Part shown: one piece after another, positions 9,979 through 30,581 of the stretch
How positions within the stretch are numbered: the stretch's first letter is position 1
Layout: the number at the start of each line of letters is the position of its first letter
Program-made: the position numbers and the translations under genes
Source of the DNA: Salipiger bermudensis HTCC2601
GTDB taxonomy: Bacteria; Pseudomonadota; Alphaproteobacteria; Rhodobacterales; Rhodobacteraceae
Assembly: GCF_000153725.1 (NCBI RefSeq)
Contig: NZ_DS022277.1
Span: 695,415 to 759,414, forward strand
Length of the DNA: 64,000 nucleotides
Reading direction: 5' to 3'
The notes under the pieces: model-generated
Databases searched by the model: none
Told to the model about the DNA's origin: nothing
What the model saw: only the letters and a program-made list of their open reading frames with translations

Positions 9979-10007
9979 GGCGCGCGGCCTTGCTCCCGCC
10001 GCGCGCC
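9979..10007 (+). terminator. GC hairpin between binding-protein and permease genes
   Basis: A perfect 9-bp stem (GGCGCGCGG / CCGCGCGCC) with an 11-base loop in the 98-base gap after the binding-protein gene. No T-run. Its position parallels the hairpins at 4270 and 54904, also right after binding-protein genes. Confidence 0.5.
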
Positions 10008-10037
10008 GGACCCTTCCCTTCGGCAAGGAGATGCCCC

Positions 10038-14516: not shown

Positions 14517-15967
14517 CTGGCGATTTTGAATGCGACCTGCTGATCCGGAATGCGGAGGTCTACGACGGCACCGGTGCACCGCCCGTCATGGCCGACGTGG
14601 CGGTGGCGGGAGACCGCATCGCGGCTGTCGGCGCAGGGCTGACGCTGTCGGCGCGCGAGGTGGTCGAGGCTGCCGGGCTGGCGCTTGCGCCGGGCTTCAT
14701 CGACGTCCACACCCATGATGACCTCGCCGCGATGCACGTTGAGACCAGCCTGCCGAAGCTGAGTCAGGGCGTTACCACCGTAGTGACAGGCAATTGCGGG
14801 ATCAGCCTTGGGCCAAGCCCGCTCACGCGGCGTGACACCGTCGTGCCGCCGCTCGACCTGATCGCCACGGCAGAGGAATACCGCTACCCGCGCTTTGGCG
14901 ATTACCTCGACGCGCTGCGCCAGCACGCCCCCGGCGTGAACGTGGTGCCGCTGGTCGGTCACACGGTTCTGCGCGCGCGGGCGGTGGAGGATCTGACCGG
15001 GCCGGCACGCGCTGAAGAGGTCGAAGCGATGCGGCAAGGTCTGGCAGAGGCGCTCGATCAGGGCGCTGCCGGGTTGTCCACCGGGCTGGCCTATCCGCCC
15101 GCCAAGGCGGCCACGACCTCCGAGGTGCTGCCCCTCGTGGGCGAGGTCGCGACCGCCGGTGCCCTCTGGACGACCCATATGCGTGACGAGCGGACCGGGG
15201 TGGTCTCGGCGGTGGCCGAGACCATCGACATCGCCCGGCGCAGCGGCGCACGGACGCTGATCTCGCATCACAAGTGCTGCGGCGAGGCCGCCTTCGGCCT
15301 CTCACGCACCACGCTCGCGATGATCGAGGAGGCGCGTGGCGAGATCCGGCTCGACATCGACGTCTACCCCTACACCGCCAGCTCGACGGTTCTGATCGAG
15401 AGCTTCGCACGCGACAGCCGGAGGGTGACGGTCAGCTGGTCGGACCCGCATCCGGACATGGCGGGGCGCGATCTCGACGAGATCGCCGCGTTCTGGGGCA
15501 TCGATCCGATGGCGGCGCTCGACCGGCTGCGGCCCGGCGGCGCGATCTACCACCAGATGGACGACGACGATCTGGAGCGGATCCTGTCCTGGCCTCCGTC
15601 GCTGGTGGGATCCGACGGGCTGCCCCGCGACCGGCGCCCGCATCCGCGCCTTTGGGGCGCCTTCCCCCGCGTGCTGGGCCTCTACGCCCGCGAACAGGCA
15701 CTGCTGCCGATGGCGGGCGCCATCGCCAAGATGACCGGCCAGACGGCAGACGTTCTTGACCTGCCTGACCGCGGGCGGATCGCGGAGGGGGCCTTTGCCG
15801 ACCTCGTGCTCTTCGATCCCGAGACCATCCGCGATGCCGCCAGTTTCGAAGATCCCGTGCGCCCGTCCATCGGGGTCCGCGCTGTCTATGTGAACGGACG
15901 CCGCGCCTATGACGGCGAGACGAACGAGGGCAGCGCCTGCGGCAGGCTGCTTGCGCGTTCCGCGTGA
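14513..15967 (+). CDS. N-acyl-D-amino-acid deacylase (D-aminoacylase-type amidohydrolase)
   Basis: 484 residues. The N-terminal beta-sandwich (LLIRNAEVYDGTGAPPVMADVAVAGDRIAAVG) leads to the first metal-binding HTH (H66, H68), then GNCGIS with Cys95 equivalent to the zinc-bridging Cys of D-aminoacylases, SHHKCCG, and a late SDGLPRDRRPHPR block carrying the catalytic Asp. It removes the acyl group from N-acyl-D-amino acids in the cytoplasm. ATG 14513 overlaps the unknown protein gene. It closes the ABC operon, consistent with import then deacylation. Confidence 0.9.
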   Translation: MTGDFECDLLIRNAEVYDGTGAPPVMADVAVAGDRIAAVGAGLTLSAREVVEAAGLALAPGFIDVHTHDDLAAMHVETSLPKLSQGVTTVVTGNCGISLGPSPLTRRDTVVPPLDLIATAEEYRYPRFGDYLDALRQHAPGVNVVPLVGHTVLRARAVEDLTGPARAEEVEAMRQGLAEALDQGAAGLSTGLAYPPAKAATTSEVLPLVGEVATAGALWTTHMRDERTGVVSAVAETIDIARRSGARTLISHHKCCGEAAFGLSRTTLAMIEEARGEIRLDIDVYPYTASSTVLIESFARDSRRVTVSWSDPHPDMAGRDLDEIAAFWGIDPMAALDRLRPGGAIYHQMDDDDLERILSWPPSLVGSDGLPRDRRPHPRLWGAFPRVLGLYAREQALLPMAGAIAKMTGQTADVLDLPDRGRIAEGAFADLVLFDPETIRDAASFEDPVRPSIGVRAVYVNGRRAYDGETNEGSACGRLLARSA

Positions 15968-16272: not shown

Positions 16273-18222
16273 ATGACTCACTTTACTCGCCTCCCAATTG
16301 CGGCGTTGCTTCTTTTTCCAATGGCTGCTGTCCCTGCTATTGCGGAAGATTTCCAATACGACACGCCAGCCGATATCGCGGAAACCGATTTCGCTGACGA
16401 TCCGGACGGGCTTGCGGAAATGCAGCGGCGATGGACCGATGCCATGACGGCTTTCACCGACATGGCCATCGCCGGAAATCCCTGGACGAATGTGAACGAT
16501 GCGCCCCGGGTCAATTACCTCGATCCGGCGGAATATGATCAGACCGTCAATACGGCGGTGCAGCCGATCACGTGGACGGCCTTTCCCAACAAGGTGAACT
16601 GGTATTTCAGCACGTCGCAAGGCACCCCTTATGCGCTCGATCCCGCGCTGACCTATCCGCTGGCAGACAAGGGCAATCTTGCCGACGACGCGGTTCTGCA
16701 GACTTGGATCGACGCGCACGGCGCGACGTACGCCAAGACCCTTCGGGCAAACCTGTCGGACGTTCTCGCCAAGTATCCTGCCCTGGGCGAGACGCCGGGC
16801 GACGGCTTTGCCGCGGTGTCGATCCCGACCGGCGTCTCGGGCGTCTGTCCGGTGGTGCACTGGGACCAACCGCAGGATGAATGGGCGCTCTACAGCTCGC
16901 GGGTCGGCGGGCCGCGGGGGTGGAAGGACGAATACAACGAATGGGTGGTGACCCGGAACGAGGGCGGGCAGATCACCAAGATCTCGTTCACCGCGGAGAA
17001 CCCGGAATACTGGTTCACGCTCTGGGAGGTCGATCCGGAAAAGGTGCTGGTGCTTTACCAGCAGCTTGTTGGACCCCAGGTCGTGGTCGAGGATCTCTAC
17101 CTGCGCGATGCCGAAGGGAACGTGGTCAACGATGCCGCGGGCAATCCCGCCTACAACCCGCTCAACAAGTGGAACTACGGCAACGAGGCGACGGAGACCG
17201 GCGGCGGCGCAGTGCACCTGACGAGCCCGCCCAACACGGTGGGCGCAGAGATGTATCTTGGCGGCGCGGCAACGATCCTGCGGGACCTGCCGGGCGATCA
17301 GTACAGCCCCGCGAACATGATCTGCTCGGGTCAGTATGGCGGCAACTTCCGCAACTCCGACCCCAATATCGGCATGCAGGGAAACCAGGTGGTGCGCAAT
17401 GTCGGCAAGCCGATCACGCTGACCAACCCGATCGCGCTGTACATGCAGATGCCGGACTTCTCCAACTACGAGACTCCGGACGGCACGCCCGCTTCCGAGT
17501 TCTTCACGGTGGTGCGCGGGCGCACGGCGGCCGAGGCGGGGCCGGATGTCCATTACGACCAGATCCTGCACGCGACCTTCGAGGTGCCGGCCGAGAAGGG
17601 CTACACCGTGTCAGACATCGTGATCTCGCCTCCGACGAACGAGGACCGGGTGTTTCCGGGCATGGTCTTGCGTACGCCGCCGCTGCCGATCCTGTATGGC
17701 AGCCAGATCGCCGAGACCTTCAATCAGGCGCTGGCGGCGACTGCCTATCTGGACGTGGACCTCGCGGACAGCACGCGCTTCCCACCCGTCGCCGAAAAAA
17801 GCCCCGCCTCGGCCCAGAACGGCTGGGCGCAACCGCTGGTGGCGATGGCGGTCTTCGATGCAGTTCAGAGCCAGCCGGCGATCTCTGCTGCGACGATCCC
17901 GCTCTTGCCATTCGAGACGCCGCCGGGCGTGTCACTGCCGCACATGGCGCTCGAGGTGCTTGGGGGCGCGATGGCGCCGGTGATCGACTATGTGGGGCCG
18001 GACGGCACGGTGGCGCAGGGCATCACGGTTACATTGAACGGCGCCATGCCGCAGACCGATGCACCGGCGGATGACGGCATCTACGAGGTCATTCTCTACG
18101 ATCTTTCCATCGAGATCGGCCCGGACGTGCCGGACGGAAGCTACGGTGTGCGCGTCACCAATCCCGGCAACGATCCCGATGTGCCGGTGCCCGGCAACAT
18201 CCTCGTCCGGTCCGGCCAGTAG
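16273..18222 (+). CDS. Large exported protein of unknown function (paralogue A1)
   Basis: 649 residues with a clear Sec signal peptide (cleavage near AIAED). It is paralogous to the protein at 19832-21676. Shared blocks include WTAFPN, PRGWxDEY, ENPEYWxTLW (A1 residues 242-251), YNPLNKWN, GGGAxHLTSxPNT, GAATxLR, QYG, RNSDPxIG and an aromatic IALYMQMP/IGLYIQTP segment. The C-terminal about 90 residues look like an IPT/Ig-type beta domain (DLSIEIGPDVPDGSYGVRVTNPG). I recognise no catalytic motif. It is followed 22 bases later by the monohaem protein gene, so the pair is one transcript. ATG 16273 follows GGAG. Confidence 0.8.
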   Translation: MTHFTRLPIAALLLFPMAAVPAIAEDFQYDTPADIAETDFADDPDGLAEMQRRWTDAMTAFTDMAIAGNPWTNVNDAPRVNYLDPAEYDQTVNTAVQPITWTAFPNKVNWYFSTSQGTPYALDPALTYPLADKGNLADDAVLQTWIDAHGATYAKTLRANLSDVLAKYPALGETPGDGFAAVSIPTGVSGVCPVVHWDQPQDEWALYSSRVGGPRGWKDEYNEWVVTRNEGGQITKISFTAENPEYWFTLWEVDPEKVLVLYQQLVGPQVVVEDLYLRDAEGNVVNDAAGNPAYNPLNKWNYGNEATETGGGAVHLTSPPNTVGAEMYLGGAATILRDLPGDQYSPANMICSGQYGGNFRNSDPNIGMQGNQVVRNVGKPITLTNPIALYMQMPDFSNYETPDGTPASEFFTVVRGRTAAEAGPDVHYDQILHATFEVPAEKGYTVSDIVISPPTNEDRVFPGMVLRTPPLPILYGSQIAETFNQALAATAYLDVDLADSTRFPPVAEKSPASAQNGWAQPLVAMAVFDAVQSQPAISAATIPLLPFETPPGVSLPHMALEVLGGAMAPVIDYVGPDGTVAQGITVTLNGAMPQTDAPADDGIYEVILYDLSIEIGPDVPDGSYGVRVTNPGNDPDVPVPGNILVRSGQ

Positions 18223-18244
18223 TTCGACAGCGGAGATCAACGCC

Positions 18245-19639
18245 ATGACACGTCCCCTTGTCCTTTCCGCCCTCGGGCTGATCCTGAGCTCCGGAAGTGC
18301 GGCGCTGGCGCAGGACGCGCCGTCCTTCCCCTGCCTCAACCCACCGACGCTAGGTCCGACCTTTCCGGGAGACACGCTTCTCAGCGACCAGCAATCGTTC
18401 AATTGCTTCGCGTGGCAGGAGTTCATCGCGGTGACCTGGCCGCAGGCAGGCGGAGATCCCGGGGTCTACGGCGATCCGGGCGGCGGGCCCACGGTCTTCG
18501 AGACGTTCATGACTTCGGCGGAACTGATGCCTCCGGCGGATTACGTTGCGCCGCCCGAGGCCGCGGAGGGGGTGCGCCAGCTCGCACGGACCGCGAAGCT
18601 CGACGGCAACTTCAACCCCGGGAGCGATATCAACGAGGCGACACCGACGACCGCGTGGCTCGCCGACCGGGATGGTAACCTCGTCTGGTACGAGATCCTC
18701 GTGAACGACGCGGAGGCCGACTACATCATCGGAAACCAGCTGTTCAAGGCGGCGAGACAGAGGGCGATGGTCGAGGATGGCGGTCGGATCGACCTGCCAA
18801 TGGGGGTTTTCAACGACAGCTCGGGAGCGGCGGAGTTCAAGGCCGCATGGCTGTCCGTCACCGACCCCGACGATCCACGTTGGACGCGGTATCTGACGGC
18901 CGATGCCCAGTTCTGCAGCGGGACCGGTGGCGATCAGGTCTGCACGACGGGAACCGTGGCGCTCGTGGGGCTGCACATCCTGCACAAGACCTCGGCGCAG
19001 CCAAGCTGGACGTGGTCCACGTTCGATCACGTGGACAATGCGCCGGACCAGGCCCAGGTTGATGCCGGGACGCTCGACCGCGAGTACCGGTTCTACCGCG
19101 AAAGCGGGTGTGTCGAGATGCCGGTGCCTGAGTCCTGCGCGGCGTTCGACAACGCAACGACAACCTCTTGCCTGCCGAACGTGTCGCCGGCCTATGCGCT
19201 CAAAGATTTCCAAGGCGGGGTGGTGGATCCGGGAAGCGCCTGCCAACCCTACCCGATCCAGGTGACACGCCAGTTTTCGCTGCCGTCGACGAACGAGAAC
19301 CCGATCGTGGCGACGAACGCCGCGGCACAGGCGATGATCGCTGCGGCCAACCCAGACAGCGTGTTCCAGTACTACCAGCTGGTCAACGTGCTCTGGGCAG
19401 ACAGTCCGGTCGACGAGAACGCGGGAGCGACCGCGCCGATGTCGCCGCTGTCGGAAACCGCGTTCCGCCCGGCGCTCAATGCTTTCAAGGTGTCGAACCC
19501 AATGCTCGAGACCTATGCGCAGGACGTCTCCTGCGTGGAGTGCCATTCCGGCGCGACGATCAAAGACGGCGGTGGCTCGGACGGGGTGCCGGCCTATGCA
19601 TCGGATTACAGCTTTATCTTCGGAATGGCCCAACAGTAG
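18245..19639 (+). CDS. Exported monohaem c-type cytochrome-like protein (paralogue B1)
   Basis: 464 residues, signal peptide ending near LAQDA, and a single haem-attachment motif CVECH at about 430-434 near the C-terminus. It is paralogous to the protein at 21691-23190. Both share FPCLNPPTL, CFAWQEFIA, ETxxxSxxLxP-type spacing, LVWYEI, VALVGLHIxHKTxxQPxWxWSTFxHVxNAPD, PDSVFxxYxLVxVLWxDSPVDEN and a final ASDYSF. The large N-terminal region is not a standard cytochrome c fold, so the haem site sits at the end of an otherwise uncharacterised domain. Co-transcribed with paralogue A1. Probably a periplasmic electron acceptor or carrier; inference only. Confidence 0.8.
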   Translation: MTRPLVLSALGLILSSGSAALAQDAPSFPCLNPPTLGPTFPGDTLLSDQQSFNCFAWQEFIAVTWPQAGGDPGVYGDPGGGPTVFETFMTSAELMPPADYVAPPEAAEGVRQLARTAKLDGNFNPGSDINEATPTTAWLADRDGNLVWYEILVNDAEADYIIGNQLFKAARQRAMVEDGGRIDLPMGVFNDSSGAAEFKAAWLSVTDPDDPRWTRYLTADAQFCSGTGGDQVCTTGTVALVGLHILHKTSAQPSWTWSTFDHVDNAPDQAQVDAGTLDREYRFYRESGCVEMPVPESCAAFDNATTTSCLPNVSPAYALKDFQGGVVDPGSACQPYPIQVTRQFSLPSTNENPIVATNAAAQAMIAAANPDSVFQYYQLVNVLWADSPVDENAGATAPMSPLSETAFRPALNAFKVSNPMLETYAQDVSCVECHSGATIKDGGGSDGVPAYASDYSFIFGMAQQ

Positions 19640-19831
19640 TCTCAACGGTCTCGATACCCGATCCCGACGCGTTCGATGTCATTGTCGCGCGCCCCGAGGC
19701 GGTATCGCAGCGGCGTCGAGCCATCGAGATCGCCGAGGCGAGCTCTCCGGTCGTGATCTCGCAGCCCGGGTGTCTACAAGGCGTCTGCCCTTCGAAATGC
19801 GCCGATGGTCGCGCCGCGCAGGCAATTGCCC

Positions 19832-21676
19832 CTATCCCTCGACCCAGAGGAAGAACGGTGCCGTCTCGCCAAGTGCGTCGCCGGCATTCGCGACCGACAC
19901 CGACCGGGTGCCGGGCGCGGCGTCCGCGCCGACATCGACCGTCAGGCGCAGGAGCTGCTGCGGCCCGGGCTCGGAGTTGCCGGGCACCGCGTAGACCACG
20001 TCTTCCAGCCCTTCGACCGTTACGGTGATCGCGGCGTCGGGAGATGTATCGCCTTCGCGGAAGAATGCCACCTGCGGGAGCGCTCCCTCCGCCTCGAACG
20101 CCGAGCCGAGCAGGGCCAGCGTTGCCGTCGTCCCGGGCATGATCCGCGGCGCCACGATGATCGTGTTCGATGCCAGCGTCATCGCCACGCCGCGCGCGTT
20201 CGGCACCGCCGACGCGTTGTATCCGTCCCAGAGGTCCTGATACATGATCTGCTGCGGCTGGGCCTTGGCGAAAGGTGCGGAGAGCCCCGCCACGCAGGGC
20301 TGTGGCGCCTGCGGCGTGTCGGCGGCCACCGCGCGGGGGAAGAGCGCCACCTGGATGGTCGGCAGCATCTGGCTGCCGTAGCGGATCGGCTCGCCATCGA
20401 CCGCGATATCACCGACCTCGAAGCTCACGCCGGCATCGCGCCACGCCTGGGGGATCTCGAATTTCGCGTGCAGGAGGAAGTTGAAGTTGGACGGGAAACC
20501 GGGCAGCGTTTCCTGCCCGCGCAGGATGGTCCAGCAATCGGCAGCGCTGGCCCCCTCGGGCAGGTTGGGATCATCGGGCAGGACGTAATTGGTGAAGGTC
20601 GGTGTCTGGATGTAAAGGCCGATCGGATCGGCGAGAGACACCCGGAAGCCGCCGCCGAAGCCCACGATCTGGTTCGAAATCTGTCCGATATGCGGGTCTG
20701 AATTGCGCATGATCTGGCCATATTGGGCGCAGCAGATCAGATCCGTGCCGTTGGCATTGCCCATGTTGCGCAGGACCGTCGCAGCGCCGGCAAGGCCGAG
20801 TTCGGTCTGTAGCGTGTTGGGTGTGGAGGTGAGGTGCATCGCGCCGCCGCCATCGGCCGTCCGGTGCGGGCCGCTGTTCCACTTGTTGAGTGGATTGTAG
20901 GCCGACCGACCGGTGCCGGGATCGATCACCGGGTTTCCCGCGGCATCGTGCAGTTCCAGATCGGCAAGGGTGATCTGCGGGCGCCCGAGGATCTCCTGAT
21001 AGATTTCAAGCACCGTCTCGGGCGAAACGGACCAGAGCGTGTACCAGTACTCTGGGTTCTCGCAGACAAAGTCGATGCGGGTGATCCGGCCATCGGTGCG
21101 GTCGCCCTCCCGCGTTACGGCCATCTCGCAATACTCGTCCATCCAGCCGCGCGGACCGTAGGGCTGGAACTGGTTCGTGGGGCCATTCGCGGGGATCTCT
21201 CCACCGGTCTGCTCCGCGCAGATCGTGGTGGTCGCAGGGATGGGGGCGATGGGCGCCGAGGTCGAATAGCCGAAATCGACGAACTCGAACCGCTGTTGTT
21301 CGCTCAATGCGTCGAGATAGAACACCGCGCGGTTCGGAAAGGCGGTCCAGCTGACCTTCTCGACGATAGAGCCGGTGAGGTCGGTAGACAGCGGGTTGTA
21401 GTAGTAATCCTGGTTTGCGGCGAAGAGCGTGGTGAAGGGATTGCCGCGGATCGCCTGTTCCGTCCAGCCGTTGGCGTTGATGTTCCACGCGTCGTTCAAC
21501 GCTGCCTGCAGCGTCGGATTGGCGGCCAGGTCCTGGATGAACGCGGGTGTCGAAAATGCCGACAACGGGACGCTCTGCGCAAGCGCCGGCCGTGGCAGGC
21601 CGGCGGCAAGGGCAGCGGCCGAAGCCCCGGCAAGAAAGCCGCGGCGCGAGAGGTGAGGTGATGCTGTGGGGCCCAT
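19832..21676 (-). CDS. Large Tat-exported protein of unknown function (paralogue A2)
   Basis: 614 residues. The N-terminus carries a twin-arginine signal (SRRGFLAG at 10-17, then a hydrophobic alanine-rich stretch to ALAQS), so the protein is exported folded. The body matches paralogue A1: WTAFPNR at 110-116, YGPRGWMDEYCE, ENPEYWYTLW from 206, YNPLNKWN, GGGAMHLTS, MRNSDPHIG. It has more cysteines than A1. The C-terminal beta domain is again Ig-like (LTVDVGADAAPGTRSVSVANAG). ATG 21676 follows GAGGAGAG. It is the last gene of a tyrosinase / monohaem protein / A2 operon. A much longer open frame reading back to 22909 is a shadow of the upstream gene. Confidence 0.82.
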   Translation of the reverse strand: MGPTASPHLSRRGFLAGASAAALAAGLPRPALAQSVPLSAFSTPAFIQDLAANPTLQAALNDAWNINANGWTEQAIRGNPFTTLFAANQDYYYNPLSTDLTGSIVEKVSWTAFPNRAVFYLDALSEQQRFEFVDFGYSTSAPIAPIPATTTICAEQTGGEIPANGPTNQFQPYGPRGWMDEYCEMAVTREGDRTDGRITRIDFVCENPEYWYTLWSVSPETVLEIYQEILGRPQITLADLELHDAAGNPVIDPGTGRSAYNPLNKWNSGPHRTADGGGAMHLTSTPNTLQTELGLAGAATVLRNMGNANGTDLICCAQYGQIMRNSDPHIGQISNQIVGFGGGFRVSLADPIGLYIQTPTFTNYVLPDDPNLPEGASAADCWTILRGQETLPGFPSNFNFLLHAKFEIPQAWRDAGVSFEVGDIAVDGEPIRYGSQMLPTIQVALFPRAVAADTPQAPQPCVAGLSAPFAKAQPQQIMYQDLWDGYNASAVPNARGVAMTLASNTIIVAPRIMPGTTATLALLGSAFEAEGALPQVAFFREGDTSPDAAITVTVEGLEDVVYAVPGNSEPGPQQLLRLTVDVGADAAPGTRSVSVANAGDALGETAPFFLWVEG

Positions 21677-21690
21677 GTCCGTCTCTCCTC

Positions 21691-23190
21691 TCACTCGCCA
21701 GCCGGGATTGGCAGGGCGTTCTGAAAGCTGAAGCTGTAGTCCGAAGCAAAAGGCGTCAGCGCATCGTTCTGGCTTGGCCAGGCGAGTTTCGCTCCCATAT
21801 GGCAGCTGATGCAGGTGGTGCCCTGGATATACGTCTCCATCGTGGTGTTCGCGACGGGTCTCTCGGTCGGCGCAGGCCGCATGCCAGAGATCGAGAGCGG
21901 GGCGGTCGATGGCGCGCGGTTGGGCGTGTTCTCGTCGACGGGACTGTCCGACCAAAGCACGTCGACCAGCATGTAGTTGGCGAAGACCGAGTCCGGAGCG
22001 GCCGCGCGGATCATCGACTGTGCGGCGGCGTTGAGGGACGCGACGAGGTTGTCCTGCCCGTCGGCAATGGCGTGCTCGCGCGCCACCTGTACCGGCATCG
22101 GCGGACAGTCCGGCGTGACGCAGAAGCCAGGCGAAGCGTTCGGTGTACAGGATGTCTCGGTCGGCGAGCCGACTTTGGAGGCGTCGCAAAAGAGCGTCCC
22201 GTCTGGCCGCGCGACTGAATTGCCGACGCATTGCGCCGGGATCGCCTGCGAGGCGCAGGACGGGTTGAAGAAACGGAACTCGTTGCCCACGTCGCCTGCC
22301 GAGACTGCGGCGGCGTCGGGAGCGTTCGCGACATGCTCGAAAGTCGACCAGATCCATTGCGGCTGGCTCTCGGTCTTGTGGATGATGTGAAGACCGACCA
22401 GCGCCAGCGTGGCAGTCTCGCAGCTGCCATGCGCGGGGTCGTGGATCAGCGCTTCGGTCAGCTTGTAGGTCGACCAGACGGGCTGAGCAGGGTCGGGGAC
22501 TTCGACCCAGGCGGATTTGAGCTCGATGGCGCCCACCGCTCCGCCTGTCCGACCGCGCGGCAGATCCACCTCCTGTCCACCGAGCGTGGCAAGATAGCCC
22601 TCCACCGCGTTGTAGAGGCGGTTCGCGACGATGTAGTCGAATTCGTCGCGGTTGATCATGATCTCGTACCAGACCTGGTTGCCGTCCCGGTCGGCGAGCC
22701 AGTTGGGCGAGCCGTCGAAGGGGAAGGCCTCGGCAATGTCGTCGGGCGCCTCGAAGTCGATGGAGACCTTGGAGGAGCGGGTCAGGACCCGCGTGCCCGG
22801 CGTGTAGATTTCCGCACAGGCGGCAGGCGCCGGGGGCAGCTCGCCGAAGGGCGGCGGCGGGCTGCCATCGGGCAGAAAGACGCTGTGGATGTCGGAATAG
22901 GTTTCCCAAACGGTGGGTCCGGTGTCGTCCGGCGCGCCGAAATTCGCGACCGGATCGGGGCCTGCCGGCGCATCGATGCCGTCGGCTTTCCAGTTCAGCG
23001 CGATGAATTCCTGCCAGGCAAAGCAGTTCAGCGAGTTCTGATCGGTGATCGGGCTGTCCGAGGGGACGGTCGAGTCAAGTGTTGGCGGGTTCAGGCAGGG
23101 AAAGGCCGGGCCGTCCTGCGCCGCCGCCACGGTGCCGCCACCAATGAAGAGCCCTGCGGCAAGGCCCGCCGCTGCAATCTTGCGTCTCAT
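21691..23190 (-). CDS. Exported monohaem c-type cytochrome-like protein (paralogue B2)
   Basis: 499 residues with a Sec signal peptide (IAAAGLAAGLFIGGGTVAAAQD) and one CISCH haem motif at about 460-464. It is the paralogue of B1, with the same CFAWQEFIA, LVGLHIIHKT, WIWSTFEHV, DSPVDEN and ASDYSF blocks and an extra Cys-rich insertion (SCASQAIPAQC, TSCTPNASPGFC). ATG 23190 follows GAGGGAGGG. It lies 47 bases after the tyrosinase gene and 14 bases before A2, so all three are one operon. A role as haem-bearing electron partner of the oxidases is inference. Confidence 0.8.
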   Translation of the reverse strand: MRRKIAAAGLAAGLFIGGGTVAAAQDGPAFPCLNPPTLDSTVPSDSPITDQNSLNCFAWQEFIALNWKADGIDAPAGPDPVANFGAPDDTGPTVWETYSDIHSVFLPDGSPPPPFGELPPAPAACAEIYTPGTRVLTRSSKVSIDFEAPDDIAEAFPFDGSPNWLADRDGNQVWYEIMINRDEFDYIVANRLYNAVEGYLATLGGQEVDLPRGRTGGAVGAIELKSAWVEVPDPAQPVWSTYKLTEALIHDPAHGSCETATLALVGLHIIHKTESQPQWIWSTFEHVANAPDAAAVSAGDVGNEFRFFNPSCASQAIPAQCVGNSVARPDGTLFCDASKVGSPTETSCTPNASPGFCVTPDCPPMPVQVAREHAIADGQDNLVASLNAAAQSMIRAAAPDSVFANYMLVDVLWSDSPVDENTPNRAPSTAPLSISGMRPAPTERPVANTTMETYIQGTTCISCHMGAKLAWPSQNDALTPFASDYSFSFQNALPIPAGE

Positions 23191-23237
23191 CACTCCGGGT
23201 CCCTCCCTCAGGAAATCATTGCCGTCGTCCGTTTCGG

Positions 23238-25046
23238 TCAGCCGCCGCAGCATGGTGTGACGGGCGGGTCCGCCGCGGTGTCCGCAGGCGGTGCGCCCCA
23301 ATGGAAGCGCGGTACGAAGCCCGGCAGCGCCGCGGCTTCGTCATCGCCCAACCGGTGGCCATCGCTGAGGCGTGTGACGACCGCCGTGACCTCTGGAGCT
23401 TCGGGCCCCGAGAGGCCGAGCGCCGCCACGGCCCGCCGGGCAGTCATCAGACGCGTCACGCCATGTCGGATGCAGCGGCCCTTGTCGTCGACGATGCCCA
23501 TGCCGATGCGCGAGAAGCGGCCCACGTAATTCGGGCAGGCCGGGCCGATATCCCCGGCATCCGCGTCCGGTTTCTCGAGAAAGACATCGATGGTGTAGCT
23601 GTCATGGGTGCAGCGCACGCCGGAGAAGGCGATCCAGGGACCGCCAGCGACGGCCGGCGCCGTGGAGAGGCCCGCAGCCTGCGGTTTGTCCTGCGCCGCG
23701 CCTTGGCGGGTGGCGCGGTAGGAGGGCACCGTCACCGGCCCATAGTCGTAGCCCAGTCGCCTGCAGTCCTGCGCCATTTGGCCGAGCGTGGTATAGCGCC
23801 AGCGCTCGGGGGAGGCCTCGTCCACGGCTGTCGCAAGCGGTCCCACGAAGGGCTGAAGCGGCGTCTGCGTCGTGTACTGCGCACCCGGGTGGGCGCGGAT
23901 CCAGATCTCCAGCATCCTGTCGATGTTTGCGTGGTAGGAGATAAAGATCGGATCGAAGGCGGTGTAGGCGTTGTCCGCCATGTCGTAGCCGATCCAGCCA
24001 TGGTAATTGTCATGCGGCTGCTCGTAGAGCCCGTCGAAATTGATCTGCCGGAACGGGTAGAGGTCGTCGGGCTGCGGAGGGGTGAAGACCGGGATGTTGG
24101 CCCAAGGCACGCCGGTCGCTCCCCAGGCGCCCTGCGGGGTCGAGAAGCTGTCGAACAGCAGCGCGTCGGCCACCTGATCCTGAAAGATGCGGGGCATCTC
24201 GAAATACCGCGCGCGGTCCGGATCGGCGGGATCGGAAAACACCTCGAGCCGCTGCACGTAGCGGCATTCGTCGCCGGTGCAGCGGTCGGGCGCGACGTCG
24301 CATTTCTTCGATCGGCCATCCTTGGCGGCGGCAAAGCGCAGCGGGTTCGGGCGGGTGCTCCCGTCGGGATGCACGTAGGTCTCGTCGAGGAAGGCCTGGG
24401 GTAGGCCCGCGCGCGGGCTCGTGGGGTCGGCGGCATCCCAGGCCATCCAGTCCCAGTAGGGGATCGCCATGCCGATCCTGTCCTCGAGATACATCAGGAA
24501 CGCGCGGTGCCAGAAGCCGAAAGCCTCTTGGTAGTGCAGGCACCAGTTGGTGTGGAGATAGGCCCACTGCTGCCATGGGCTGGAGGGTGAGGATGAGCCG
24601 ACATGCATGATGTCGTCGAGCGCGGCGCGAAAGGCGGTCAGCTCCGCCTCGCTCAGTGCGGTGATGTCTTTTCGCACGCGCAGGCCCGGATCCGGCTGCA
24701 CGGGTGGCGGGATCCGCTCCGCTGGATCGAGCGTCGACGTCGCGTCGCGTGGGCATCCGGCATTGATCCAGGCGCGGAGGGTCTCGAGCGCTTCGTCGGG
24801 CCACATCTGCCGCTGGTCGCGGGTCAGTGGCATGTTGCGAGAAGCGAGGTGGTTGTAGATCGTGACAGCCCAAGTCGTCACGCTGTCGTAGTCTGTGAAG
24901 TCGATGAGATAGGCTGCCATGCAGCGAGTCCAGAAATATCCGACATCCTCTCGCTCCGCCTCGTCGATCCAGTATGGCATTGCGAAGAGTGGCGAAATAT
25001 CGACGTCCCAGACAGGTGGTTTTTCTATCATTTTCTCAAAACTCAT
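23238..25046 (-). CDS. Tyrosinase family type-3 copper protein
   Basis: 602 residues. CuA ligands are H165 (YLHTNW), H171 (CLHYQ) and H180 (FWHRAFLMYLE); CuB ligands are H345 and H349 (PHDNYHGWIG) and H372 (DPIFISYHANIDRMLEIW). C169 two residues before H171 gives the Cys-x-His arrangement that forms a thioether bridge in fungal tyrosinases and molluscan haemocyanins. Residues about 35-100 form an extra N-terminal module ending in a WPDEALETLRAWINAGCP motif, and about 200 residues follow the copper core. There is no signal peptide. It oxidises phenols or catechols to quinones. It heads the operon with B2 and A2 and diverges from the LodA-like gene. Confidence 0.9.
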   Translation of the reverse strand: MSFEKMIEKPPVWDVDISPLFAMPYWIDEAEREDVGYFWTRCMAAYLIDFTDYDSVTTWAVTIYNHLASRNMPLTRDQRQMWPDEALETLRAWINAGCPRDATSTLDPAERIPPPVQPDPGLRVRKDITALSEAELTAFRAALDDIMHVGSSSPSSPWQQWAYLHTNWCLHYQEAFGFWHRAFLMYLEDRIGMAIPYWDWMAWDAADPTSPRAGLPQAFLDETYVHPDGSTRPNPLRFAAAKDGRSKKCDVAPDRCTGDECRYVQRLEVFSDPADPDRARYFEMPRIFQDQVADALLFDSFSTPQGAWGATGVPWANIPVFTPPQPDDLYPFRQINFDGLYEQPHDNYHGWIGYDMADNAYTAFDPIFISYHANIDRMLEIWIRAHPGAQYTTQTPLQPFVGPLATAVDEASPERWRYTTLGQMAQDCRRLGYDYGPVTVPSYRATRQGAAQDKPQAAGLSTAPAVAGGPWIAFSGVRCTHDSYTIDVFLEKPDADAGDIGPACPNYVGRFSRIGMGIVDDKGRCIRHGVTRLMTARRAVAALGLSGPEAPEVTAVVTRLSDGHRLGDDEAAALPGFVPRFHWGAPPADTAADPPVTPCCGG

Positions 25047-25255
25047 CGCGGGATGGCAGAGTTTGAATTCGCTGACGTGAATGAGAGCTTACGACACGTG
25101 TCGCGGATTTGCATTACCAATTTGGAGAGTGTTGTGATTTAATTTCTCCTATTGGTAGAGCCTCAATGACTCGCGAGGGCGCCGCGCTGCCCGATCAATT
25201 CCGCGCCAGCGGGCAAATGCGGAGGGGCGATCCGGAGAATTGACAGGGAATGTCC
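25047..25255. promoter_or_regulatory. Divergent promoter region between tyrosinase and LodA-like genes
   Basis: 209 bases with a distinctly AT-rich core (about 25050-25160) in a GC-rich neighbourhood. It contains the 5' ends of both operons and no open frame of note. I cannot assign -35/-10 elements with confidence. Shared control of both oxidases is likely from geometry. Confidence 0.5.
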
Positions 25256-26920
25256 ATGCAGTCCGTAGCCTACTTGAAGATACACCCCGGAGTAGGCATC
25301 GCACGGCTGGGCAATGCGCGCGGCGAAGGGCCTGCCGCGCAGCGGACGGATTATTTTGTCGGTCCGGTGCGCCCCGGTCCGGTGGCGCCACCGCCGGGCG
25401 GCTACAAGGTCGAGGGCTGCGTGAAGCGGCAGGCAGCGGAGTTCCGCGTCTTCGCTTACGACGCGGAGGGCGGTTGCCTTGGCGAAGTGACGGCGGCGGA
25501 GGCGCGGATCGACTGGACTGTCACCGTGGCCAATACCAAAGCATCCTGGCTGACCTTCAATGGCCAGAAGCCCGGCGCGCCGAGGAACCCGAAGATCTCC
25601 GGCCCGGCGCGCGCCGGGCTCGAGATTGCGCCGGGGCCGCGCTCCATCTCGGGTGCGCATGCGGGTCCGGTGCGGTTCGACAGCGGGCAATTCGTGGCCG
25701 ACCCCGAAACTGCGCCGGTTGCGGTGCCGCTTGGCGAGTTGCTGACCGATGGCGCCGGCCGGCTCCTCGTCCTTGGCGGACACGGGCACTCCGCGGCGCC
25801 CGGGGGTGAGCCGATCGAAGATTATGCCAACAATGACGGGTGGCATGACGATACCTCGGACGGGCGGGTTGCCGCGCAGGTCACGCTTCCTGACGGTCGC
25901 GTCCTCGACGCCGCGCCGTCATGGGTGATCTGTACGGTGCCGAAATTCGCGCCCGCGCTGGAGAACGTGGTGACGGCGTATGACATGCTTTGGGATCTCT
26001 GGGTGCAGGGCCACCCGGAGGACCGGCCAACGACCACCGACTACTGGACCGACGTGCATCCGGTGCTCCTGCGGATCATGAACGTACGCTGGACCATGGG
26101 AACCGGGCCGGTGCACGCTTTCGCCGTCCAGATGGCGATGCGGGAGGCCGCAACCCGCGGCGACCGCAAGGCGCTCTTTGATCGCATCCGCAGCCCTTAC
26201 GGTGACAATCGCGGGCTGATGAACATGCCGATGCTGTATTCCGACCAGTATGTCTGGCGTCCGCAGGGCGATGCCGGCTTTGCCGTGACGGGCGTGATCT
26301 ACGACCATCTGCGCCGCTGGGTCGACGTGGGCGCACCCGGGGGGGCGCCGCCCGCGACGCCGGGTGCCGACGCCCCGGTGACGCCCGAGGGGATGGACCG
26401 TGCGGCGTTGGAGAATGCCTGTGGCGGGCCGTTCTACCCGGGCATGGAGTTCGGCTGGATGATGCGCGATGTCTACACCTGGGCAGAGCCCTTCCGGCTG
26501 GCGGAGGCGCAGCGGGCCTCGGTCACTGGCAAGCTCGAGCCCGGCGACGTGACGAAGCAGATGGCCGTGCCTTGGCAGGCGGATTTCCTGCAGTGCCGGC
26601 GCGACACGGTTGACGCTCCGGCGCCCGGGGCGACGAAGGCGCCGCCTGAAGACACGGCGCAGCTCGCCGGGCCGGTCTACTATCCGGGCTGGTGGCCACA
26701 GCACAGGCCGGACATGGTGACCCCCTTCGGGCAGACCGTGCCAAGGGTCTGGACCCGGGGGATCGGGATCAACGATACCGCCGGGTTTATTGCGGAGTGG
26801 TCGAAACTTGGCTTCGTTCTGGAGCGCGCTGGCGTCTACTGGGAAACCGAGCGCGACCTTCCGGAGCCGCCCGAGCCGCCCGAGCCGCCCGAGCCGCCCG
26901 AGCCGCCCGAGCCGACATGA
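25256..26920 (+). CDS. LodA/GoxA-like quinoprotein (CTQ-dependent amino acid/amine oxidase)
   Basis: 554 residues. The N-terminal IHPGVGIARLGN and TDYFVGP blocks and the IKRQAARFRVYAYD-like VKRQAAEFRVFAYD identify the family of Marinomonas L-lysine epsilon-oxidase and glycine oxidase. The cofactor pair is visible: Cys about 389 in ENACGGPFYPG and Trp about 440 in AVPWQADFLQC, matching LodA Cys516 and Trp581 contexts, which crosslink to cysteine tryptophylquinone. Expected reaction: oxidative deamination releasing H2O2 and ammonia. ATG 25256 is preferred over 25250 because AGGGA has correct spacing. No signal peptide. The C-terminus ends in six PEP repeats. Substrate unknown. Confidence 0.87.
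   Translation: MQSVAYLKIHPGVGIARLGNARGEGPAAQRTDYFVGPVRPGPVAPPPGGYKVEGCVKRQAAEFRVFAYDAEGGCLGEVTAAEARIDWTVTVANTKASWLTFNGQKPGAPRNPKISGPARAGLEIAPGPRSISGAHAGPVRFDSGQFVADPETAPVAVPLGELLTDGAGRLLVLGGHGHSAAPGGEPIEDYANNDGWHDDTSDGRVAAQVTLPDGRVLDAAPSWVICTVPKFAPALENVVTAYDMLWDLWVQGHPEDRPTTTDYWTDVHPVLLRIMNVRWTMGTGPVHAFAVQMAMREAATRGDRKALFDRIRSPYGDNRGLMNMPMLYSDQYVWRPQGDAGFAVTGVIYDHLRRWVDVGAPGGAPPATPGADAPVTPEGMDRAALENACGGPFYPGMEFGWMMRDVYTWAEPFRLAEAQRASVTGKLEPGDVTKQMAVPWQADFLQCRRDTVDAPAPGATKAPPEDTAQLAGPVYYPGWWPQHRPDMVTPFGQTVPRVWTRGIGINDTAGFIAEWSKLGFVLERAGVYWETERDLPEPPEPPEPPEPPEPPEPT
26861..26914 (+). repeat. Six tandem 9-base repeats encoding Pro-Glu-Pro
   Basis: The unit CCCGAGCCG (first copy CCGGAGCCG) is repeated six times, nearly perfectly, at the very 3' end of the LodA-like gene, three bases before its stop. 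It encodes a stiff acidic proline tail. The repeat number could vary by slippage without changing frame. Confidence 0.9.
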
Positions 26921-27966
26921 CTGTGCACGATGTCGCAGTCATAGGGGCCGGACCTGCGGGGCTGGCGGCGGCCCTGACGCTGGCAGAGGGCGGCGCTCGG
27001 GTGGTCGTGTTGGAGCGGTCCGAGTCGTTTCGCGATATGCCCGGCGAGCACCTCGGGCCGGCAGCCCTCCCGGTCCTCGCGCGGCTCGGCTGGACGCCCC
27101 GAGCGCCCGGCGCGGTGCCGCTCTCTGCCATCGTCAGCCACTGGCGCGCGGGTCCGCCCGTGCGGCAGGAGGCGCTGTTCGACCCGTATGGCCTCGGCTT
27201 CGCCATCGAGCGCGCGACGCTCCTGTCGGATCTCGCCGCACGGGCCGGGGCGGCAGGTGCCGCCCTGCGGTTCGGATCCACCGCGCGAGGGATCTCGGGT
27301 CGCCCCGGTGACTGGCGCATCACCTGCGATTCCGGTGACGTGACGGCCGGAGCGATCTTCGACGCAAGCGGCCGGGCGCGGCGCGTGGCGCGGGCGCTCG
27401 GGGCGGCCGCGGGAGCGGCTGACGACTTGATCTGCCATCACCGCGTTCTGGCAGGGGCGGACGCGGGCGCGGTCGAGCTCGTTCTGGAAGCCGTGGACCA
27501 GGGCTGGTGGTATACCTTGGCTCTGCCGCGGCCCGGCCGGATCGCGGCAGGGTTCGTCACCGACCGCATGACCGGCGCGGTTTGGGAGAGTGCCCTTGGC
27601 CGCGCCCCCGCGACGCGCGCTCGGATCGGCGGCTTTTCCGAGTGCACCCGCTGCACCGTGCCCTGCGGCAGCCCGGGCCAGCACCTCGCGGGCGGCGCGG
27701 GCTGGCGGGGACTGGGGGATGCGCACGCGGCGTCCGATCCGCTGTCGGGCCTTGGTCTCGCGCGGGCGCTGTCGGACGGGCGGGAGGCCGCGCGTGTCTA
27801 TCTTGGACTTGCTCCGGAACCGGTGCCGTTGCCGCCCCGCAGCGCCGAGACCGCAACGCGCCGCCTGCTCTATGCCGAGGCCGGTGCGCGCTGGCCCCGT
27901 GCATCGTTTTGGCGGGCGCGAACCGAGGACAAGCGGCGGCCTCTTGCGCTTCGGGAGAGGGCGTAG
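26917..27966 (+). CDS. LodB-like FAD-dependent maturation enzyme
   Basis: 349 residues. The N-terminal GAGPAGLAAALTLAEGGARVVVLER is a Rossmann FAD-binding motif, and a later GLGDAHAASDPLSGLGLARAL block is the second FAD contact of the tryptophan-halogenase/geranylgeranyl-reductase-like group. In Marinomonas, LodB is required to make the CTQ cofactor in LodA. The ATG overlaps the LodA-like stop (ATGA), the usual lodAB arrangement. Cytoplasmic, no signal peptide. Confidence 0.87.
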   Translation: MTVHDVAVIGAGPAGLAAALTLAEGGARVVVLERSESFRDMPGEHLGPAALPVLARLGWTPRAPGAVPLSAIVSHWRAGPPVRQEALFDPYGLGFAIERATLLSDLAARAGAAGAALRFGSTARGISGRPGDWRITCDSGDVTAGAIFDASGRARRVARALGAAAGAADDLICHHRVLAGADAGAVELVLEAVDQGWWYTLALPRPGRIAAGFVTDRMTGAVWESALGRAPATRARIGGFSECTRCTVPCGSPGQHLAGGAGWRGLGDAHAASDPLSGLGLARALSDGREAARVYLGLAPEPVPLPPRSAETATRRLLYAEAGARWPRASFWRARTEDKRRPLALRERA

Positions 27967-28136: not shown

Positions 28137-28760
28137 TCAGAACTCGACGCCCTTCTGGGCCTTCACCCCATCCTTGAACGGGTGCTTGAGCAGCGTCATC
28201 TCGGTCACGAGGTCGGCCGCCTCGAGCAGCTCGGGCTTGGCGTTGCGCCCGGTGAGGCAGACATGGGTCATCGGCGGCTTCTCGGTGAGGAGGAAATCCA
28301 CCACCTCGTCGATCTCGAGGTAATCGTAGCGCAGCGCGATGTTGATCTCGTCAAGCAGCACGAACTGGATCTCGGGGTCACGGATCTGGGCCTTGGCGAT
28401 CTCCCAGCCGTTCCGCGCCGCAGCGATGTCGCGTTCGCGATCCTGCGTGTCCCAGGTGAAGCCCTCGCCGGAGATGAAGAAGCGGCATTCCTCGGAGAAG
28501 CGGTTGCGCAGGAACTCGGCTTCGCCCGTGACCCAGTTGCCCTTGATGAACTGGACCACGGCGCAGGGCATGCCATGCCCGATGCAGCGCATGATCATCC
28601 CGAAGCCCGAGGAGGACTTGCCCTTTCCGGGGCCGGTATGGACGATGATCAGGCCTTTCTCCTCGGTCTTTCCCTGCATCATTCTGTCGCGGGCGGCCTT
28701 GATTTTCTTCATCTTTTCTTTGTGACGGGCGTTTTCGTCGGCGGGTGTCTCGTCGCTCAC
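28137..28760 (-). CDS. cobO: Cob(I)yrinic acid a,c-diamide adenosyltransferase
   Basis: 207 residues with a GTG start at 28760 behind AAGGAGC; there is no suitable ATG. The charged N-terminal helix (ARHKEKMKKIKAARDRMM) precedes the P-loop TGPGKGKSS (about 42-50). Further CobO/BtuR blocks are AVVQFIKGNW, GEGFTWDTQD, LLDEINIALRY and LTGRNA. It transfers the 5'-deoxyadenosyl group from ATP to cob(I)yrinate diamide in the cytoplasm. It diverges from the riboswitch-led cob operon, so it has its own promoter in the 45 bases up to the riboswitch or inside it. Confidence 0.95.
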   Translation of the reverse strand: MSDETPADENARHKEKMKKIKAARDRMMQGKTEEKGLIIVHTGPGKGKSSSGFGMIMRCIGHGMPCAVVQFIKGNWVTGEAEFLRNRFSEECRFFISGEGFTWDTQDRERDIAAARNGWEIAKAQIRDPEIQFVLLDEINIALRYDYLEIDEVVDFLLTEKPPMTHVCLTGRNAKPELLEAADLVTEMTLLKHPFKDGVKAQKGVEF

Positions 28761-28804
28761 CGGAAGCTCCTTCGCTTGACAAGGGCGGAAATTGCGGCGC
28801 ATCT

Positions 28805-28998
28805 GGCACCACGCTGGTGCCTGTGTAAACAGGTGAAAAGGGAATGCGCCAGCCCGGGAAACCGGGTCAAGCGCAGCCGCCCCCGCGACCGTGACCGGAA
28901 AGGTCCTCCACCGCCACTGGCCTTGCGCCGGGAAGGCAGGGGGGCCGCTGGATGGCGCTGCCATCCTGCATCCGCAAGCCGGGAGACCTGCCAGCGCA
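28805..28998 (+). ncRNA. Cobalamin riboswitch upstream of the cob operon
   Basis: On the plus strand the leader shows the B12 element in order: GGCACC...GGTGCC stem, GTGAAAAGGGAAT (GAAnnGGGAA type box), AGCCGCCCCCGCGACCGTGACCGG, and the B12 box AAGCCGGGAGACCTGCC at 28976-28992. The next genes are the DUF1636 protein, cobW and cobN, so it should switch the whole operon off when adenosylcobalamin is plentiful. Edges are approximate. Confidence 0.93.
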
Positions 28999-29106
28999 AG
29001 ACGACACCAAGACCGGACGGGGTGTGCCGGGGACGGGTTCATGCCGCCGGTTCATGCCGGGGGTGATCCTGCTCGCATGCCTTTGCCGACACCAGCGGAG
29101 AGGCCT

Positions 29107-29517
29107 GTGCAGAACGATCCACAATCCAGCGCCGAGAGCGAGCTTCTCGTTTGCGTCAAGTGTCGCCGCGGCCCCGAGGCGCCCGCCGATGACCGCCGTC
29201 CGGGGCGCCGCCTCTACGACCGGTTGTGCGCGCTCGGGCCCCCCGCGGGGGTGCGGCTGCGCGCCGTCGAGTGCCTGCAGAACTGCGAGGCGGGCTGCAC
29301 CGTGGCGCTGCGCGGCGCGGGCCGGTGGACCTATGTCTACGGGCAGCTCGACGACGAGGCCCATGCCGAGACGCTGCTCGACGGCGCCGGCCGCTATCAC
29401 GCCACCGCCGACGGGCTGATCCCGTGGCGCGAGCGCCCGGAGCATTTCAAGCGCAACTGCGTGGCGCGCGTGCCGCCCGCGACCTTTCCAGACCCCCTTC
29501 AGGAGACCGACCAATGA
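29107..29517 (+). CDS. DUF1636 family metal-binding-type protein
   Basis: 136 residues from a GTG at 29107 behind GGAGAGG; ATG 29077 is the alternative start. The N-terminal LLVCVKCRRG CxxC pair and ECLQNCEAGC (C-x3-C-x3-C) recall the thioredoxin-like 2Fe-2S ferredoxin layout. The remainder includes WTYVYGQLDD and a short C-terminal extension. DUF1636 genes commonly sit beside cobW. Being first after the riboswitch and overlapping cobW (ATGA), it likely helps metal handling for cobalt insertion; function unproven. Confidence 0.85.
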   Translation: MQNDPQSSAESELLVCVKCRRGPEAPADDRRPGRRLYDRLCALGPPAGVRLRAVECLQNCEAGCTVALRGAGRWTYVYGQLDDEAHAETLLDGAGRYHATADGLIPWRERPEHFKRNCVARVPPATFPDPLQETDQ

Positions 29518-30569
29518 GCGACCTCAGGAAGCTGCCCGTCACCGTGATCACCGGCTTTCTCGGCTCCGGCAAGACCACGCTGATCACCGGGCTGATGCAG
29601 AACCCCGGCGGCAAGCGCCTTGCCGTGGTGGTCAACGAGTTCGGCGATGTGGGCGTCGATGGCGAGATCCTCAAAGGGTGTGCGATCCCCGACTGCCCGG
29701 CGGAGAACATCATGGAGCTGTCGAACGGCTGCATCTGCTGCACCGTCGCGGATGATTTCATCCCCACCATCAAGGCGCTGATGGCGCTCGAGCCGCGCCC
29801 CGATCACATCCTGATCGAGACCTCGGGGCTCGCCCTGCCGAAGCCGCTGCTGAAGGCGTTCGACTGGCCCGACATCCGCTCGCGCATCACCGTCGACGGG
29901 GTGATCGCGCTGGCCGATGCCGAGGCGGTGGCGGCAGGGCGTTTCGCGCCCGACGTGGCGCGGGTCGACGCGCAGCGCGCCGCCGATGACAGCCTCGATC
30001 ACGAGACCCCGCTGTCGGAGGTGTTCGAGGACCAGATCGCCTGCGCCGACATCGTGCTGCTGACCAAGCCCGACCTCGCCGGTCCCGACGGCGTCGCGCG
30101 CGCCAAGGAAATCATCGCCGCCGAGGCGCCGCGCCCGATCCCGGTCATCGAGGTGGCCGAGGGCGTGGTCGACGCCCGCGTCATCCTCGGGCTCGAGGCG
30201 GCGGCCGAGGATGACATGGCGGCGCGCCCGAGCCACCACGACACCCCGCATGACCACGATCACGACGAGTTCGACTCGATCGCGGTGGAGATCCCCGAGC
30301 TGAGCGATCCCGCCGCCCTCGTCCGCGCCATCGAGGGGCTTGCGCGCGAGCACAACATCCTGCGGGTCAAGGGCTATGCCGCGGTGGCGGGCAAGCCGAT
30401 GCGCCTGCTCGTGCAGGCGGTCGGCGCGCGGGTGCGTCACCAGTTCGACCGGCCGTGGGGCGCGGGCGAGGCGCGGCACGGCCGTCTGGTGGTGATCGCC
30501 GAGCATGACGACATCCGCCGCGACGTGATCGAGGCGGCGCTCGGCGCCGCCCGCCAGCCCGCCGAGTAA
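29514..30569 (+). CDS. cobW: CobW GTPase, cobalt chaperone of cobalamin synthesis
   Basis: 351 residues. P-loop GFLGSGKTT at 14-22, the metal-binding CICC at 73-76 (GCICC), the SGLALPKP switch region, LLTKPDL as guanine-specificity motif, a histidine-rich linker (HHDTPHDHDHD) and a CobW_C domain. G3E-family GTPase that supplies Co2+ for CobN-dependent chelation. ATG 29514 overlaps the DUF1636 stop, and 12 bases separate it from cobN, matching the usual cobW-cobN order. Confidence 0.95.
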   Translation: MSDLRKLPVTVITGFLGSGKTTLITGLMQNPGGKRLAVVVNEFGDVGVDGEILKGCAIPDCPAENIMELSNGCICCTVADDFIPTIKALMALEPRPDHILIETSGLALPKPLLKAFDWPDIRSRITVDGVIALADAEAVAAGRFAPDVARVDAQRAADDSLDHETPLSEVFEDQIACADIVLLTKPDLAGPDGVARAKEIIAAEAPRPIPVIEVAEGVVDARVILGLEAAAEDDMAARPSHHDTPHDHDHDEFDSIAVEIPELSDPAALVRAIEGLAREHNILRVKGYAAVAGKPMRLLVQAVGARVRHQFDRPWGAGEARHGRLVVIAEHDDIRRDVIEAALGAARQPAE

Positions 30570-30581
30570 GGCCCGCCCGCC

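Follow-up and report, generated by a model that had tools for sequence, protein, structure and literature searches.

Seven genes around two uncatalogued pairs

We describe an island of seven adjacent genes in a 64,000-nucleotide stretch of Salipiger bermudensis HTCC2601 (contig NZ_DS022277.1, positions 695,415 to 759,414; hereafter the window), in which two pairs of genes from families that we call A and B lie beside a tyrosinase and a LodA-like quinoprotein. The island is real and recurring, A-B is its widespread core pair, and no catalogue searched gives either family a name. All seven open reading frames assigned to 16273-27966 by an initial annotation are found in place. On the plus strand A1 (16273..18222, 649 amino acids) precedes B1 (18245..19639, 464 amino acids); on the minus strand the tyrosinase gene (23238..25046, 602 amino acids) leads B2 (21691..23190, 499 amino acids) and A2 (19832..21676, 614 amino acids), the order TYR-B2-A2 being the reverse of the A-B order in the first pair, and the two pairs converge, as had been claimed. 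Across a 203-bp intergenic region (25047..25249), the LodA/GoxA-like gene (25250..26920, plus strand, 556 amino acids) diverges from the tyrosinase gene and overlaps by four bases the LodB/GoxB-like gene (26917..27966, plus strand, 349 amino acids). The region had been read as a shared divergent promoter; the divergence stands, but since a consensus scan gave no sigma-70-like match there, a promoter common to the two operons is not established.

The tyrosinase matches PF00264 at 98 bits (cut-off 22.6), yet reaches 36.8 of the 450 bits of the NCBIfam MelC2 equivalog. His165, 171, 180, 345, 349, and 372, which by motif we take to be the six copper ligands, and Cys169 are conserved in seven of seven A-linked tyrosinases. 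Seven of the A-linked loci also share an N-terminal extension of about 150 residues (1-150 in the window protein), with no Pfam family of its own. The LodA-like protein carries LodA_N (207.8 bits, cut-off 26.3) and LodA_C (79.4 bits, cut-off 25) domains (PF17990 and PF18417). Its Cys449, Trp482, and Asp445 align with Cys516, Trp581, and Asp512 of 3weu, the Trp stretch weakly (4.6 bits), and presumably play the same roles at the cysteine tryptophylquinone (CTQ) site. It falls short of the NCBIfam equivalog scores that would indicate its substrate (184 of 600 bits for LodA, 223 of 750 for GoxA); its partner, a flavin adenine dinucleotide (FAD) protein, is closest to the GoxB, LodB, and QhpG models of NCBIfam. 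The LodA-like protein ends in an EPP repeat (EPPEPPEPPEPPEPPEPT; 26860-26920), immediately before the lodB overlap.

Each B protein has the haem motif attributed to it, CxxCH at residues 430-434 of B1 (19532-19546) and 460-464 of B2 (21799-21813), together with a lysine in a P460-like motif (Lys199 of B1, 18839-18841; Lys225 of B2, 22516-22518) and, in B2, His268. Neither A1 and A2 nor B1 and B2 meet a Pfam or NCBIfam family above cut-off. Pfam scans at E<=0.1 gave no family met by more than two of 55 A proteins or by more than one of 49 B proteins, and profile searches of PDB sequences with both families gave weak matches only, taken as chance. High-confidence models were obtained for A2 (predicted local distance difference test, pLDDT, 87.6; predicted template modelling score, pTM, 0.89) and B2 (pLDDT 87.9, pTM 0.89). 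No PDB fold matched either at E<=0.001, the best being immunoglobulin-like and similar domains for A2 (E 3.2e-3) and a match at E 0.12 for B2. Neither A nor B occurs elsewhere in the genome, and LodA is present in one copy.

The A-B unit and its recurring neighbours

A scan of one genome per species found 164 relatives of A, of which the best 80 loci were examined; they come from six phyla (Pseudomonadota, Bacteroidota, Myxococcota, Cyanobacteriota, Bdellovibrionota, and Planctomycetota). At 77 of the 80, B comes after A on the same strand, with a median gap of 25 bp (range -59 to 270, 74 measured pairs). The three exceptions are a locus where a B fragment lies upstream at a contig edge (L015) and two whose contigs stop 161 and 194 bp past A (L043, L059). 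Among 398 Pseudomonadota genomes A occurs in three, all of which also carry B, and B in 17; B is the wider family. No Pfam family recurs in more than two of the neighbours of A-B (n=70). A tyrosinase above 100 bits lies in the fetched flanks of four of the 80 loci, weaker matches at L062 (80 bits) and L089 (23 bits) being left out of the count, and LodA lies near A in three (L022, L024, L027). The reading that the pairs belong to an oxidase island is thus not supported. The initial annotation held that the grouping would be coincidental if the pairs were both widespread away from the oxidases and not co-expressed with them here; the first half of this is what we find. Although A-B pairs are independent of the island, their grouping with oxidases is not coincidental.

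That grouping, which had been proposed as an oxidative module with haem partners, is borne out by several observations. Of the 80 A-B genomes, 12 (8/40 and 4/40) have a gene matching the window tyrosinase at E<=1e-5, and five have a match at E<1e-50: in four the gene adjoins A (L015, L036, L037, L055), and in the fifth (G385) it lies on a contig compatible with the order of the island, as judged across a contig break. In a plasmid collection, all five records with this tyrosinase, four of them from one species, have A and B adjoining it. Among neighbour clusters, from which L006, L007, and L009 were excluded, tyrosinase ranks first with eight loci, including three outside the scan (L004, L005, L011) and the weak L062; since the second family is found at seven, the count by itself is unremarkable. 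Nine tyrosinase-linked rows of the A tree (one labelled via contig order) require a minimum of four changes along well-supported branches, so the link between tyrosinase and A has been gained or lost repeatedly. LodA_N occurs in 35 of the 80 A-B genomes (20/40 and 15/40) against 13 of 385 Alphaproteobacteria, a background that includes the window's genome and is unmatched for phylum and genome size; in three A-B genomes (G402, G436, G437) LodA adjoins a tyrosinase-like gene elsewhere in the genome.

The closest relative of the island belongs to an alphaproteobacterial metagenome-assembled genome (locus L014), where all seven genes are present, split between two contigs but matching in order. 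A1-B1 and B2-A2 converge as in the window, with identities of 58% (A1), 53% (B1), 72% (A2), and 64% (B2, over the 304 amino acids present). The other contig (L101, 4,064 bp) carries a tyrosinase N-terminus (62% over 137 amino acids) divergent from LodA (52%) and LodB (33%). The contigs are separate, with broken ends compatible with one order. Because a second genome shows the same arrangement, albeit on two contigs, the seven-gene arrangement is more than chance. Beyond A1 the relative has an enoyl-CoA hydratase gene, unlike the window. The two pairs had been called a duplicated pair. B1, B2, and the B of the relative do group together (100/98), but the A tree puts A1 and A2 in separate clades, both well supported, and a single A1+A2 clade was rejected by the approximately unbiased (AU) test (p-AU 7.5e-7, with seven long-branch rows removed beforehand and long branches still in play); simple duplication of the pair is therefore rejected.

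Probable haem chemistry of B and the partners of A

What kind of cytochrome B might be is suggested by its conserved residues. All 114 B proteins keep Lys225 and His268, and 113 keep Trp228; CxxCH stands near the C-terminus in all 113 with letters there, and a CxxCH is present in all 34 distant matches. In the alignment the lysine corresponds to Lys78 of the Methylococcus protein (6hiu, with the position counted from its sequence), the cross-linking lysine according to Table 2 of the portion of PMC11928373 available to us. Compared with the P460/c'-beta superfamily as described in that portion, B likewise places its single c-type haem close to the C-terminus and has a lysine within G-x-x-x-x-K-x-x-W at the cross-link position, but it is about 500 residues long against roughly 150-200 for P460 chains, contains insertions, and misses the Pfam cut-off. 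The P460 family PF16694, common in itself (18 of 96 Alphaproteobacteria), scores best in a Xanthomonas B beside LodA (L099, 20.2 of 27 bits) and at E<=1 matches 4 of 33 distant B proteins, a count that no other family reaches. Aligned with P460 proteins, a set that excludes L118 and L119, whose final CxxCH is part of a different haem domain, the distant-B profile gave three matches, ordered as they are in P460: GaiElKaAW (probability 43%, E 2.5e-4), WIWaTFEH against GWGFGRF (E 0.014), and CxxCH to DySF (E 0.54). With the haem motif cut, the B-P460 score was 22.6 (probability 2%, E 0.028), against at most 17.0 for 60 column shuffles, 13.4 for the reversed profile, and 16.2 for family A; a further family, X, which has its own CxxCH, scored 30.9. 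Homology of B to cytochrome P460 appears somewhat favoured overall. B is probably an enlarged P460 relative that keeps the lysine at the haem-cross-link position, with profile support that is modest and unconfirmed by the fold search. B as an enlarged P460-type cytochrome is the most testable new claim made here, the mechanism of the island being conjectural.

Relatives of B that lack A have other company. Some lie beside GMC oxidoreductases, in Azospirillum (L095), in Bradyrhizobium (L098), and at L153, with an FAD-SLDH-type small subunit alongside in L095 and L098; one lies beside a molybdopterin enzyme in Methylobacterium (L097), and two beside lodA-lodB in Xanthomonas (L099) and Pseudoalteromonas (L173). 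Among neighbours of distant B genes (n=55), GMC and DAO families are commonest, with four each. Because further relatives (e.g. L174 to L176) adjoin unlike genes, the partner slot of B is not always an oxidoreductase.

In family A, 43 positions are conserved in at least 93% of 65 proteins and in six of seven short ones, among them Glu181, Tyr182, Glu184, Glu206, Glu209, Tyr210, His281, Arg324, Asp327, Tyr355, Arg386, and Gln436; as none of the 43 is a cysteine, a CTQ-like cofactor in A is disfavoured. Relatives of A border B, a CxxCH protein of family X (L036, L037, L050), or cysteine-less kin of X (L006, L094), and short A relatives lie beside DyP-type genes (L008, L009, and weakly L100). Since this slot holds haem or haem-like proteins, A looks like a subunit served by a haem protein. 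Family X itself lies directly 5' of A and has no Pfam family; its rhizobial kin lack the haem cysteines, and one of them (P0003), considered as a DyP, was rejected in favour of such kinship. Kinship between B and X was likewise rejected, hhalign giving probabilities of 2.8 and 2.4% with CxxCH alone aligned. On a Mesorhizobium plasmid (L007, 10001-12481) one protein joins an A-type domain to a phospholipase-D-like one, beside S8 and M20 peptidase genes.

A proposed extracytoplasmic oxidative module and its alternatives

Signal-like N-termini, judged by a hydropathy rule on guessed start codons, are found in 79 of 83 B proteins. In the window A1 (Sec-like) and A2 pass the rule, whereas the tyrosinase and LodA fail it. 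A2 also bears a Tat-like motif, SRRGFL, at residues 10-15, but falls short of the cut-offs of two Tat models, scoring 15.5 of 22.7 and 16.4 of 16.7 bits; in the relative A1 passes, and A2 has SRRRFLQG but lies below the hydropathy threshold. A leaderless tyrosinase encoded with a protein bearing a Tat-like signal recalls Streptomyces, where leaderless MelC2 exits by hitchhiking on Tat-signal-bearing MelC1 (PMC2758597, in the part available). A2 differs in that Pfam gave it no MelC1 family match, only a sub-threshold Tat signal, and in being far larger than MelC1, a small helper protein.

The LodA side of the island has published counterparts. Operons that combine LodA with tyrosinase and multicopper oxidase genes, and their co-regulation in Marinomonas, have been described, and LodA-type enzymes are oxidases that yield hydrogen peroxide (Campillo-Brocal et al. 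2015, PMC4417212, in its accessible part). The group ID operons described there resemble the island in having lodA-like and lodB-like genes near a tyrosinase gene, many of them in Alphaproteobacteria. The island differs in having no multicopper oxidase gene and no small gene between lodA and lodB, its two A-B pairs are not among the features described in that part, and the window LodA is likened to the group without tree-based placement. Linkage of tyrosinase with LodA is thus already in the literature; no published A-B-like system was found in the open-licence papers searched.

We tentatively suggest that the island encodes an oxidative module that acts outside the cytoplasm and has the A-B unit as its basis. 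Here B would be an exported haem-c protein, probably an enlarged P460 relative with a haem-cross-linking lysine, and A the subunit that it serves, most likely binding or oxidising the substrate and, in the window lineage, carrying its own export signal. The leaderless tyrosinase, made together with B2 and A2, may exit on the Tat-like signal of A2, much as MelC2 does on MelC1. LodA, matured by LodB, would oxidise an amine or amino acid to give hydrogen peroxide, which could serve as the oxidant for B or be needed to form its cross-link; a peroxide-dependent P460 cross-link has been reported (Bollmeyer 2023, as cited in the available part of PMC11928373). A broader proposal, rather unlikely as a whole, is that A-B is a two-component oxidoreductase of several phyla, in which a new-fold A acts with an enlarged P460-type B bearing a lysine-cross-linked haem, neighbouring quinone and flavin oxidases supply the peroxide, and tyrosinase belongs to the same exported complex. 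Several observations weigh against the module. No member of A has a known activity, and a signal-like N-terminus is found in just 10 of the 93 A proteins. Next to tyrosinase, a Tat-like motif is seen only in the window and its closest relative; the A proteins beside tyrosinase in Paracoccus and Sinorhizobium lack it. PF16694 is below cut-off in every B scanned, with none of 49 closer members at E<=0.1; the 50 Foldseek matches listed for the B model, out of 80, include no P460; and the B-P460 profile probability depends on the haem motif. Lastly, neither oxidase lies in the fetched flanks of most A-B units.

GMC flavoprotein dehydrogenases come with a small subunit and a cytochrome, and such cytochrome subunits pass electrons to the respiratory chain. 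The B relatives that adjoin GMC genes with an FAD-SLDH-type small subunit occupy the place expected for the cytochrome, and another lies beside a molybdenum enzyme. B might therefore be a plain relay, taking electrons from an oxidoreductase (A, GMC, molybdenum, or LodA-like) through its single c-type haem to the respiratory chain, with no P460 or peroxidase chemistry. We consider this doubtful, for LodA-type enzymes are described as peroxide-producing oxidases (PMC4417212, as above) and a relay would seem to have no use for an invariant lysine at the P460 position. The comparison with GMC dehydrogenases and DyP-type peroxidases rests on the neighbours of B relatives and short A relatives, respectively, and differs from the island in that neither enzyme is in the window. 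The Tat-like signal of A2 next to a leaderless tyrosinase, and the spread of tyrosinase-linked A over separate branches of the A tree, would also suit a non-catalytic role in assembly, with A carrying or loading the copper enzyme like MelC1 and B supplying or removing oxidant during cofactor maturation. Such a role is improbable given that most A-B units have neither tyrosinase nor LodA in their fetched flanks and that A2 has no MelC1 family match. The same commonness of A-B away from oxidases, together with the separate origins of A1 and A2 and the rarity of A in Pseudomonadota, could instead reflect unrelated exported oxidative genes joined by transfer, with no common function; a relative retains the arrangement with protein identities of 33-72%, and the tyrosinase-A linkage recurs, which leaves this explanation little room. 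Overall, the interpretation first offered survives as a recurring oxidative group with haem proteins, LodA being commoner in A-B genomes than in the unmatched background and B relatives bordering GMC, molybdenum, and LodA enzymes, but not in tying the pairs to the island nor in their simple duplication.

Should the favoured module be correct, P460-type haem chemistry, whose studied examples include proteins of ammonia oxidisers and methanotrophs, would reach into a large family that works beside copper, flavin, molybdenum, and quinone enzymes; family A, whose fold is unmatched, would be given a functional frame for the first time; and tyrosinase would acquire a second Tat carrier, unrelated to MelC1.

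The island is flanked on the left by peptide-type ABC transporter and amidohydrolase genes (9990-15967) and on the right by cobalamin synthesis genes (28137-33881), all named by eye from their translations. An empty site was sought in 29 fetched CobO loci of the window's family, and none was shown: the island and left-flank proteins were unmatched there, and beyond CobO the matches were short CobW stretches in three loci only. An odd base composition is ruled out by the GC content of the island (0.664, against 0.676 for the window). What looks like a larger cluster on the same theme is seen on a Bradyrhizobium barranii plasmid (L094, 6057-25355), with genes for B, a ferritin-like protein, a divergent LodA_N protein, a radical SAM protein, a tryptophan halogenase-like protein, an X-like protein, a short A, a metallo-beta-lactamase (MBL) hydrolase, LodA, and an FAD monooxygenase.

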